DNA of 52,930 nt. Origin: Gammaproteobacteria bacterium (GTDB taxonomy: Bacteria; Pseudomonadota; Gammaproteobacteria; GRL18). Positions 6,711-10,636 of this stretch are shown here, in pieces. The stretch spans positions 1 through 52,930 of the forward strand of contig JALUZF010000244.1 of assembly GCA_027012135.1 (NCBI GenBank), read 5' to 3'. Each line of letters starts with the position of its first letter. The stretch's first letter is position 1. The notes under the pieces are model-generated. The model made no database searches, was not told the origin of the DNA, and saw only the letters and a list, made by a program, of their open reading frames with translations. The translations under genes and the position numbers were made by a program.

Positions 6711-6757
6711 TTATTTAAGCCTTTAGCCCTTATTTAAGCCTTTAGCTTTTATTTAAG
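6711..6757. repeat. 19-bp tandem repeat at the 3' end of queE
   Basis: TTATTTAAGCCTTTAGCCC (6711-6729) and TTATTTAAGCCTTTAGCTT (6730-6748) are followed by a partial third unit from 6749. The partial unit is the end of queE itself (Leu-Lys-stop). The stop region therefore seems to have been copied twice into the spacer. Confidence 0.7.
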
Positions 6758-7384
6758 CCCCAGGATCTTATGAGTCTGCAAAGAAACCCGCCATTGCGGA
6801 TGCTGTAGACAATAGTCCACAACCGCCTGCTGGTTATCCACCTGCCCGGCTTCATCAACCGCCTGCAGATAAAAATAGCTAAAATCCAGTTCGGCAAACT
6901 GTTCCGGCGGCAGATCATCCCGGGGAAACAGCAGCTTGAGTTCATCTCCGCTGCGCTGTTCCAGTTTATCCAGCTGCTTAGGGCTGACGCACAGCCAGTC
7001 AATACCCGGCGGGGCATTTATTGTGCCATTGGTTTCCACTGCAATTTCAAAACCAGCCTTATGCAGGGCATTAATCAGTTCACTATCCAGCTGCAGCAAT
7101 GGTTCTCCCCCGGTAAAGACAACATAGGGAACACCTTCAGTATTCTCCGGCCAGGTTTTGCGGATCTGTTCAGCCAGCTGCGGTGCCGAAGCAAACTTGC
7201 CGCCGCCTTCACCATCGGTACCGACAAAGTCCGTATCACAAAACGGGCAGACGGTATTATGCCGGTCCTTTTCCAGACCGCTCCAGAGATTACAGCCGCT
7301 GAAACGACAGAACACGGAGGCTCTACCGCTTTGATGGCCTTCACCCTGCAGGGTGTAAAACAGTTCTTTGACAGTATAGGTCAT
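6749..7384 (-). CDS. queE: 7-carboxy-7-deazaguanine synthase QueE
   Basis: A 211-residue radical-SAM enzyme that converts 6-carboxytetrahydropterin to 7-carboxy-7-deazaguanine in preQ0/queuosine synthesis. It starts MTYTVKELFYTLQGEG, typical of QueE. The cluster-binding cysteines are C31, C46 and C49 (C-x14-C-x2-C), the wider spacing of the E. coli type rather than C-x3-C-x2-C. The SAM-binding FTGGEPLLQ and AVETNGT follow. Only 2 bp separate it from the queD stop codon, so the genes are translationally close in a queC-queD-queE operon. Confidence 0.95.
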   Translation of the reverse strand: MTYTVKELFYTLQGEGHQSGRASVFCRFSGCNLWSGLEKDRHNTVCPFCDTDFVGTDGEGGGKFASAPQLAEQIRKTWPENTEGVPYVVFTGGEPLLQLDSELINALHKAGFEIAVETNGTINAPPGIDWLCVSPKQLDKLEQRSGDELKLLFPRDDLPPEQFAELDFSYFYLQAVDEAGQVDNQQAVVDYCLQHPQWRVSLQTHKILGLK

Positions 7385-7386
7385 AT

Positions 7387-8505
7387 TCAGTCCGGCAGGG
7401 CAGGGCCTTCTTCACCCCAGCATAAAACAGCACCACATCCCGGTGTTTCAAATAAATCAATACGATCCAGCTGTGGTAAAGCGGCCGCCATTTTATCCTT
7501 AATCCAGTAGAGCAGATGGGTGACATCCGCATCTTCTATGCCTTCGAGCTGATCCAGACGCTGATGATCCAGTTGTTTATAGATGGGCTTAAAAAGGGCT
7601 TTAACATCCCCGTAATCCACAGTCCAGCCCATGACCTCGTCCAGTTCAGCGGTTAAATGCAGACGGATAAGATAGCTATGTCCATGCAGTTTGCGCCGTC
7701 TGTCATGCTCCGCAACCCGGTTTAATTTCAGGGCACTTTCAAACCGCTGTTCTTTCCAGATACGGTAATGTTCGCCATTATAATGACAGCCGGAAGTATG
7801 GGTTTCATACACAGTAACCCAGGACAGCTGGCTGAACTTCGGCCTGAGCCGCTGCCAGATCCAGTTGGCCAGCACCTCGGAGGTGGGATTTTCCAGCCCG
7901 TCAATATCATTAAGACAGCTATAATCCAGCTGTTCAAACAAAGGCTTCCAGAGCTGATCCATTCGAGCAAAATCCACACCCATATCGGCCTGTTTCTGCT
8001 CCCCGTCCAGATCCTGGTTGGCATGTAAAATGACTTCAAAGCCGTGTCCGTGCATACGCCCGCATTGGTGGCCTTCAGGGACATTAGGAAGCTGATGCGC
8101 AGCTTCAAAACGATACCGCCTCCAGATATGCGCATGCCCCTGCCGATCCAGATCCACACCGCTGTCATGGGTACTCTGAATAGCCACCCGATCAATCCCC
8201 TGCAGATCAATTTTCTGGTGTACCCAGCGAGCCAGGTTCTCATCAGTAGGTACTGACAGGTGATTATTTAACAGAGTGTAATTTAAAGGGGCAATGGTTT
8301 TCTGTAAATGTTCCCTTAAAAAGGCCACTGGCTCTTCTGCAAAGCCATCGTGCTCATTACTGCCGCTCAGTTCCATGGGAACCCGCACAGAAGCCAGATA
8401 GCTGTGCCCATGCAGTTGTGCCGCAGGATGCTCCTCCGGCAGAATATTTATCTGGCAGGCAGATTCAAACGGCATAGTCGCCAGGTAATAAATAGTATCA
8501 GTCAT
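7387..8505 (-). CDS. queD: Triple-domain QueD-like 6-carboxytetrahydropterin synthase
   Basis: A 372-residue protein, three times the usual QueD length (about 120), made of three tandem PTPS/QueD folds (about 1-125, 127-248, 250-372). Each keeps a FES/EA opening and an HGH zinc motif. Domain 2 is closest to E. coli QueD: zinc ligands H137, H152 and H154, nucleophile C148, ENPTSE and ETHTSG. Its catalytic Asp-His pair reads D194-Y195. Domain 1 has C17, A28 and N75-Y76 at the matching places. Domain 3 has L259 and R270 but keeps D313-H314 and E353. The catalytic residues are thus divided between domains 2 and 3. QueD makes 6-carboxytetrahydropterin from dihydroneopterin triphosphate. It lies in the que operon between queC and queE. 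Confidence 0.88.
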   Translation of the reverse strand: MTDTIYYLATMPFESACQINILPEEHPAAQLHGHSYLASVRVPMELSGSNEHDGFAEEPVAFLREHLQKTIAPLNYTLLNNHLSVPTDENLARWVHQKIDLQGIDRVAIQSTHDSGVDLDRQGHAHIWRRYRFEAAHQLPNVPEGHQCGRMHGHGFEVILHANQDLDGEQKQADMGVDFARMDQLWKPLFEQLDYSCLNDIDGLENPTSEVLANWIWQRLRPKFSQLSWVTVYETHTSGCHYNGEHYRIWKEQRFESALKLNRVAEHDRRRKLHGHSYLIRLHLTAELDEVMGWTVDYGDVKALFKPIYKQLDHQRLDQLEGIEDADVTHLLYWIKDKMAAALPQLDRIDLFETPGCGAVLCWGEEGPALPD

Positions 8506-8556: not shown

Positions 8557-9237
8557 TTATTTTTCAAAATATTTAAAGCGCTCAATTAAGGGATCCGGAC
8601 GCTGAGCTTCAGCAAAACCTTTAGCTCTTAAAATACAGGCTGAACACTTACCGCAGGGCGGCTGTTGGCCATTATAACAGGTATGCGTCCAGGCCATGGC
8701 ATCCATTGCGCCCAGACGCTCGGCCAGCTCTACCGTATCAGATTTGCTCAGGTTCATAAGCGGGGTATGAATGGTGATATTATACTCCATACCCAGACAC
8801 AGGGTCTGTTCCAGAGCGCTGAGGGTATTTTCCCGGCAATCGGGATAGCCACTGTAATCCGTCTGTGCCACACCGGTTATCAGGTGTTCTATACCCCGGC
8901 CATAAGCATAGGCACCGGCAAAGGTTAAAAAAATCAGATTACGCCCGGGGACAAAGGTATTGGGCAGCTGTGTCTGTTCGTCCACTTCCTGCTGCACATC
9001 AATATTATCGGTCAGGGCATTACCACCCAGTGCAGCAAAGGTATTAATGGGCAGAATTTCATGTGCAACACCGGCAATCTCTGCCACCTTTTGAGCCGCT
9101 TCCAGTTCAATGTTGTGCCGCTGACCATAATCAAAACTGATACTGGAGACATTTTCCGGCCCGAATTCATTGATTGCCCAGTACAGACAGGTGGTCGAAT
9201 CCTGACCGCCGGACAGTACTACCAGTGCTTTTGCCAT
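8557..9237 (-). CDS. queC: 7-cyano-7-deazaguanine (preQ0) synthase QueC
   Basis: A 226-residue ATP-dependent enzyme that turns 7-carboxy-7-deazaguanine into preQ0. The PP-loop SGGQDS is at residues 9-14. FVPGRNLIFLTFA is the usual central signature. The C-terminal zinc site has four cysteines in C-x7-C-x2-C-x2-C (about 187-201). Length matches the family. It is the first gene of the minus-strand que operon, 51 bp before queD, and is divergent from cobO across a 117-bp spacer. I saw no preQ1 riboswitch in that spacer. Confidence 0.95.
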   Translation of the reverse strand: MAKALVVLSGGQDSTTCLYWAINEFGPENVSSISFDYGQRHNIELEAAQKVAEIAGVAHEILPINTFAALGGNALTDNIDVQQEVDEQTQLPNTFVPGRNLIFLTFAGAYAYGRGIEHLITGVAQTDYSGYPDCRENTLSALEQTLCLGMEYNITIHTPLMNLSKSDTVELAERLGAMDAMAWTHTCYNGQQPPCGKCSACILRAKGFAEAQRPDPLIERFKYFEK

Positions 9238-9354: not shown

Positions 9355-9972
9355 ATGAGTACAGATAAATCTCAGCGACATAATAAACGCATGCAGCGCC
9401 ATAAAGAAGTAGTGGATGCAAAAATTGAGCAGGCCGATATTGAGCGCGGCGTAGTGATTGTCATTACCGGCAATGGTAAAGGTAAAACTACTTCAGCACT
9501 GGGTACTTTATTACGTTCCCTGGGCCATGGTCACCCATGTACACTGGTGCAGTTTATCAAGGGACAATGGGACTGTGGAGAAACCCGTTTTTTTGCCGAT
9601 CCTTCCTGTTCTTTAAACCGCAATCTGACCACATTTACCATGGACACCGGCTTTACCTGGAATACCCAGGACTTTAACAGTGACAAACAGGCCGCCGAAC
9701 AGATCTGGCAGCAGGCGCTGCCTTTTTTCATGGATCACGACTGCCGTCTGATTGTGCTGGATGAAATCACCTATATGTTTAAATATAAGTATCTGGATAT
9801 TAATGACCTGCTGCAGGCCATAGACAATCGTCCTGAACAGCAGAATATTATTATTACCGGCCGCGGTGCTCCCAAAGCACTGCTGGATATTGCCGATACT
9901 GTAAGCGAGATTCAGCCGGTAAAACATGCCTTTAACCAGGGCATTAAGGCTCAGGAAGGCATTGAGTGGTAA
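9355..9972 (+). CDS. cobO: Corrinoid (cob(I)yrinic acid a,c-diamide) adenosyltransferase
   Basis: A 205-residue CobO/BtuR/CobA-type enzyme that transfers adenosine from ATP to cob(I)alamin or corrinoid precursors. The P-loop TGNGKGKTTSALG starts at residue 38. LVQFIKGQW and LIVLDEITYMFKYKYL (Walker B region) are typical, as is the IITGRGAPKALLDIAD end. An AAGAAG ribosome site precedes the start. The next gene, bluB, begins 7 bp after the stop. The pairing points to cobalamin synthesis or salvage. The short upstream region has no room for a typical cobalamin riboswitch. Confidence 0.93.
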   Translation: MSTDKSQRHNKRMQRHKEVVDAKIEQADIERGVVIVITGNGKGKTTSALGTLLRSLGHGHPCTLVQFIKGQWDCGETRFFADPSCSLNRNLTTFTMDTGFTWNTQDFNSDKQAAEQIWQQALPFFMDHDCRLIVLDEITYMFKYKYLDINDLLQAIDNRPEQQNIIITGRGAPKALLDIADTVSEIQPVKHAFNQGIKAQEGIEW

Positions 9973-9979
9973 AACAGAT

Positions 9980-10636
9980 ATGACCGGTACCAAACCACAC
10001 TCTAAACACCGCTTTCCCAAGGCCGAAATCCGCGGCGTTTACCACGCCATAGAATCCCGCCGTGATATCCGTCATTTTATCCCCGGCGAGATTGACCCCA
10101 AACTGCTGGAACGTCTTATTAAAGCCGCACATCATGCCCCCAGTGTCGGCTATATGCAGCCCTGGCATTTTGTACGTATTACCAAGCCTCAATTACGCCA
10201 TGCCATCCACGACCATGTTGAACACGAACGACTGAATACCGCCGATGCCCTGCAGCAGCGCCGGGATGAATTTATGAAACTGAAAATTGAAGGTATTCTG
10301 GAATGTTCCGAACTTCTGGTGGCCTCTCTGACCAGTCAACGTGAACAGTATATTCTTGGCCGACGCACCATACCTGAAATGGATCTCGCCTCCGTGGCCT
10401 GTGCGATACAGAATATGTGGCTGGCGGCACGAGCCGAAGGCATTGGTCTGGGCTGGGTGTCTTTTTTTGAACCGGAGGTTCTGGCCAGCTTAATTAAAGC
10501 ACCACAGGGCGCTCTGCCTGTGGCTATTTTATGCATAGGTCATGTAGAACACTTTGCTGACAAACCGCTGCTGGAAGAAAGCGGCTGGGATAGCCGACGC
10601 CCTTTATCTGAGATTATTTCTGAAAACCTGTGGTAA
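9980..10636 (+). CDS. bluB: 5,6-dimethylbenzimidazole synthase BluB
   Basis: A 218-residue nitroreductase-fold flavoenzyme that uses O2 to break down FMNH2 into 5,6-dimethylbenzimidazole, the lower ligand of B12. The N-terminal ESRRDIRHF (FMN contact), HAPSVGYMQPW and the signature GRRTIPEMDLASVACAIQNM identify BluB. I chose the ATG at 9980, 7 bp after the cobO stop. An in-frame ATG at 9926 would overlap cobO by 47 bp and add 18 residues unlike the family. Presence of bluB suggests an aerobic way of life. Confidence 0.93.
   Translation: MTGTKPHSKHRFPKAEIRGVYHAIESRRDIRHFIPGEIDPKLLERLIKAAHHAPSVGYMQPWHFVRITKPQLRHAIHDHVEHERLNTADALQQRRDEFMKLKIEGILECSELLVASLTSQREQYILGRRTIPEMDLASVACAIQNMWLAARAEGIGLGWVSFFEPEVLASLIKAPQGALPVAILCIGHVEHFADKPLLEESGWDSRRPLSEIISENLW

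Follow-up and report, generated by a model that had tools for sequence, protein, structure and literature searches.

A three-domain QueD variant predicted to form a single-chain pseudo-trimer with one composite active site

QueD (6-carboxytetrahydropterin synthase) converts 7,8-dihydroneopterin triphosphate to 6-carboxytetrahydropterin. In PTPS enzymes the Cys, the zinc and the Glu come from one subunit and the Asp-His pair from its neighbour, as in the rat enzyme with CysA42/AspB88/HisB89/GluA107. Characterised single-domain QueD/PTPS-I proteins (E. coli 4NTK and 3QN0, P. aeruginosa 2OBA) carry one domain per chain and form hexamers, i.e. dimers of trimers, with six identical sites. The inter-subunit character of the PTPS triad appears in the title of Burgisser 1995 ("Intersubunit catalytic triad motif"), as listed in PMC7546909, and CxxxHGH is the PTPS-I motif (PMC5445326).

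Other enzymes combine T-folds in tandem. Bimodular QueF (V. cholerae, 3S19), also of the queuosine pathway, splits its catalytic residues between domains: one of the tandem domains carries Cys/Glu and the other the QueF motif, and they come together between the domains (PMC5372742). Urate oxidase likewise has tandem T-folds. Its sites form where the C-terminal strand of one chain adjoins the N-terminal strand of the following chain (PMC5138847), a beta4-beta1 junction that draws residues from two domains; one subunit contributes Arg176 and residue 228, the other Thr57*/Lys10* (PMC2490695). GTP cyclohydrolase IB (FolE2) is a further tandem T-fold enzyme.

The protein described here lies in a window of 52,930 nucleotides, the whole stretch of gammaproteobacterial DNA that was analysed. 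The open reading frame at 7387-8505 on the minus strand starts with ATG and encodes 372 aa, predicted to be a QueD. It matches PF01242 with E 3.5e-57 over the whole protein (192.1 bits vs. a cut-off of 22.4) in three stretches (8161-8448, 7771-8127 and 7426-7761), in agreement with the original prediction of three tandem PTPS/QueD folds in one chain, and it passes the NCBIfam QueD model TIGR03367 with 159 bits vs. a cut-off of 89.25. The fold, the CxxxHGH motif, the zinc ligands, the Asp-His pair, the Glu residues and the queC/queE context are shared with single-domain QueD, but the single-domain architecture of the characterised homohexamers is not: the chain has three domains, and we therefore class the protein as a QueD variant rather than a typical member. 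Each chain would hold one complete site. It differs from bimodular QueF, a nitrile reductase with two domains and no central tunnel, and scans of Pfam and NCBIfam, with E allowed up to 1, gave no QueF family match for it. Urate oxidase differs in having two domains, a site between chains, no zinc and another chemistry; FolE2 (3d2o) superposes, but its reaction and residues are different.

Catalytic roles were assigned by aligning each of the three domains to E. coli QueD. Domain 1 (residues 1-123, 8137..8505, minus strand as are all features below unless stated) is degenerate: its zinc ligand positions hold C17, H32 and H34, the nucleophile is replaced by A28, the Asp-His pair by N75-Y76 and the late Glu by S111, while E89 occupies the anchoring Glu position. 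Domain 2 (residues 124-245, 7771..8136) retains the zinc ligands H137 (codon 8095..8097), H152 and H154 (H152-G153-H154, 8044..8052), the nucleophile C148 (8062..8064), the pterin-anchoring E210 (7876..7878, equivalent to rat E107) and the second active-site Glu, E234 (7804..7806, equivalent to rat E133 and E. coli E110), and its Asp-His pair reads D194-Y195. Domain 3 (residues 246-372, 7390..7770) retains the Asp-His of the triad, D313-H314 (7564..7569), together with H274, H276 and E353; it has L259 for the first zinc ligand, R270 for the Cys and T329 for the anchoring Glu. All residues that had been named earlier for the three domains were recovered by this alignment, and the anchoring Glu, which the original prediction did not mention, is likewise kept in domain 2 and lost from domain 3. 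The PTPS-I motif is present in domain 2 as C148-GRM-HGH, with C148, H152, G153 and H154 invariant in an 84-row alignment. The full set of three zinc His, Cys, Asp-His and two Glu is thus found in the chain as a whole (domain 2 plus domain 3) and in no single domain.

This division was followed in 105 distinct three-domain homologues, collected by a scan of a genome collection and by genome searches; their hosts include Chromatiaceae, Competibacteraceae, Chromobacteriaceae/Neisseriaceae, Granulosicoccaceae and others, with Chromatiales and Neisseriales among the orders. The division foreseen between domains 2 and 3 holds in every one of them. In domain 2, H137, C148, H152, H154, E210 and E234 are each present in 105/105, as is the HGH triplet, and domain 2 is the only domain that keeps all six zinc, Cys and Glu residues together. 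The Asp-His pair is invariant in domain 3 only (D313 and H314, 105/105 each). The equivalent Asp position of domain 2 is occupied by H (45), D (41), N (13), Q (3), E (2) or S (1), and the His position by ten different residues, so that with 6 and 10 residue types the two positions fall in the 67th and 71st percentile of entropy within the domain. In domain 3 the first zinc ligand position is mostly L/V/T/M, the Cys position mostly R and the anchoring Glu position mostly A/G/T. All eight roles are filled in 38/38 single-domain QueDs (37 from the loci of the homologue search plus E. coli). The complete set of eight roles therefore survives once per three-domain chain, with domain 2 holding six of them and domain 3 the other two. 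By a simple count, such an arrangement of invariant positions comes to 0.004, or 0.02 if any ordered pair of domains is allowed; judged from the sequences, the split pattern of six domain 2 positions and the domain 3 Asp-His, all at 105/105, is not chance, and the stronger argument at this level is absolute invariance beside free drift at equivalent positions.

The AlphaFold2 model of the full chain, built on the 84-row alignment, has a mean pLDDT of 92.6 and a pTM of 0.90 (91.9 and 0.87 for the domain 2-domain 3 fragment alone). Domain 2, which is about 50% identical to E. coli QueD, superposes on it at 1.1-1.7 A (1.5 A over 120 aa on 4ntk), and domain 3 does so at 1.0-1.3 A. Domains 1-2, and likewise 2-3, can be overlaid on the urate oxidase tandem T-folds for ~210-220 aa at 4.3-5.4 A, which puts adjacent domains next to each other in the manner of a T-fold barrel, with linkers of ~4 residues from the last strand of one domain to the first strand of the next. 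Covariation points the same way: V117-A125 and S115-R129 stand out between beta4 of domain 1 and beta1 of domain 2, and C240-E256 and S238-E256 between beta4 of domain 2 and beta1 of domain 3, whereas the reverse strand pairings contain at most one weaker pair. The fold is a confident one with the domains side by side in the order 1-2-3, and this beta4(i)-beta1(i+1) pattern together with the urate oxidase superposition places domain 3 next to domain 2. The closure of domain 3 onto domain 1 has a weak covariation signal (A359-I5, z 2.8). Covariation of the zinc loop with the Asp-His loop did not distinguish the domain 2-domain 3 pairing from domain 2-domain 1 (Neff ~68), which is to be expected for invariant residues. 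V. cholerae QueF was considered as evidence for ring closure and set aside: its match is given as ranges only, model residues 1..372 over 193 aa; a placement of the two QueF domains on domains 1 and 3 would fit this match, and QueF is absent among the matches listed for the domain 2-domain 3 fragment, a list that ends at a higher Z.

The gene stands between queC (8557..9237, PF06508 8.2e-76), upstream in the same direction with a gap of 51 bp, and queE (6749..7384, TIGR04508 queE_Cx14CxxC 4.3e-100), downstream with a gap of 2 bp. One or both of these genes occur at 88/105 homologue loci, many of which have short flanks. It is the sole PTPS gene of its genome, as the three profile matches all lie within this reading frame. 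The source genome also encodes TGT and QueA, so the queuosine pathway is probably in use and the organism probably needs QueD. Two full-length QueA matches are present in the source genome (contigs C145, beside TGT, and C20; loci L208 and L209), i.e. a paralogue or contamination of the bin, estimated at 4.59%. No Rfam element such as a preQ1 riboswitch was found within the window. The plus strand at 9355-10636 carries cobalamin genes of the cobA/btuR and bluB families, which are divergent from the que genes and overlap each other by 47 bp (9926-9972).

As the catalytic set is kept exactly once, the most likely fold of the chain is a mini-trimer in which only one active site works. We give a probability of about 0.86 to the reading that this is a single-chain pseudo-trimer QueD with one composite site from domains 2 and 3, as had been proposed from the sequence; family conservation, the high-confidence model, the urate oxidase superposition and strand covariation all support it, and urate oxidase and bimodular QueF offer precedents for a site shared between domains. 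The QueD homotrimer would be internalised in one chain with predicted QueD activity: three side-by-side T-fold domains would close a 12-strand pseudo-trimer barrel in which one of the three inter-domain sites is complete, with zinc held by H137, H152 and H154, C148 and E210/E234 from domain 2 and Asp313-His314 from domain 3. By analogy with PTPS, the six domain 2 residues correspond to the 'A' residues and the two domain 3 residues to the 'B' residues, and C148 and H314 would meet across the 2/3 junction. If the urate oxidase geometry is carried over, the anchoring residues of domain 2 would face domain 3, which is what conservation requires. At the 1/2 and 3/1 junctions the sites would be dead, and two chains are probably stacked head to head, giving a pseudo-hexamer that has two active sites where the usual hexamer has six.

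The same composite chemistry could arise in trans, if a domain-swapped oligomer brought domain 2 of one chain together with domain 3 of a second chain. Conservation alone would look identical in the two cases, but the confident single-chain model with its short linkers, the superposition of domains 2-3 on contiguous urate oxidase tandem T-folds and the covariation of domain 2 beta4 with domain 3 beta1 make such swapping improbable. Somewhat less probable still is a ring running in the opposite direction, in which the domain 2 zinc site faces domain 1 and Tyr76 replaces the His in a re-engineered triad; the conservation of Y76 (102/105) and of D/N75 (103/105) would fit it, but the invariance of D313-H314 would be left unexplained, and in urate oxidase the partner residues come from the next domain.

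The remaining readings are the least credible. Domain 2 is the nearest of the three to single-domain QueD and might be thought to act alone in an ordinary homotrimer of domain 2s, with domains 1 and 3 as appendages; yet this would need an Asp-His pair of its own, and here the pair is D-Y, the His drifts to Y/L/G/F/Q/M/C/N/K in homologues and the Asp-His of domain 3 never changes. Equally hard to credit is a protein that is no longer a QueD and has taken a binding or regulatory role: the degeneration of domains 1 and 3 would agree with this, but not the position of a sole PTPS gene adjoining queC and queE, nor the complete and conserved catalytic set across the chain.

Under the preferred composite-site reading domain 1 is not catalytic, and it is nevertheless constrained. 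H32 and H34 (H32-G33-H34, codons 8404-8412) are present in 105/105 despite the lost nucleophile and catalytic His; the Cys is missing in 97/105, the first zinc ligand position is R (78) or C (23), the Asp-His pair is mostly D-Y or N-Y, and the late Glu is mostly S. The original prediction took the other sites to be structural. For domain 1 the invariant HxH, together with the strongly conserved R/C17, Y76 and S111, suggests that some function has been kept, which may be structural or may lie in ligand binding, and H32-G33-H34 is a possible second ligand or structural site. We tentatively speculate, as a scenario less likely to be right than wrong, that one triplication was followed by loss of two of the three sites, and that the domain 1 HxH (R/C17, H32, H34) became a second site, which would bind a ligand or metal without taking part in catalysis and would support the live site.

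The domain tree, which has few columns and many unresolved forks, puts domain 1 into a single group and domain 3 into another (100/100 each), and domain 2 comes close to forming one; domain 2 lies near the E. coli-type single-domain QueDs. This fits a single triplication and later spread across families. Among 369 sampled genomes of the class, 19 have the three-domain form and 35 a single-domain QueD (E below 1e-40); none of the 369 matched both, and no two-domain form was found in them. A plasmid search gave no match to the three-domain QueD, and a phage collection gave only one Salmonella record, which matches 62% of the query as two pieces that fall on about one QueD domain.

Some individual copies deserve mention. 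In Chromatium okenii LaCa (L105:4992-6014) the frame is broken inside domain 2, the catalytic-Cys stretch is absent, a PPFSKGG-type repeat is inserted and the end comes soon after the domain 3 Asp-His; this copy looks like a pseudogene. Thiorhodococcus minor has, besides an intact copy (L054), a second one in two reading frames on a short contig (L100:793-1850). Another genome (G582) has two matches on separate contigs (L203, L204), one of them short at the C-terminal end.

For the family, InterPro has 18 domain architectures (PMC5445326), which makes it probable that the fusion itself is already catalogued. The literature searched yielded no account of a three-domain QueD or of its composite site, and an earlier mention is possible. 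We judge the three-domain chain to be a real, little-noticed QueD variant, a single-chain pseudo-trimer with one composite site. It would be a naturally occurring asymmetric counterpart of an enzyme that is a symmetric trimer: since a mutation in one domain would affect one half-site only, the inter-subunit triad of PTPS/QueD could be dissected residue by residue. Together with bimodular QueF, two enzymes of the same pathway would each have merged T-fold subunits and divided the catalytic residues between the copies. Annotation pipelines labelling domains 1 and 3 as 'QueD' purely by similarity would overlook that neither is self-sufficient.
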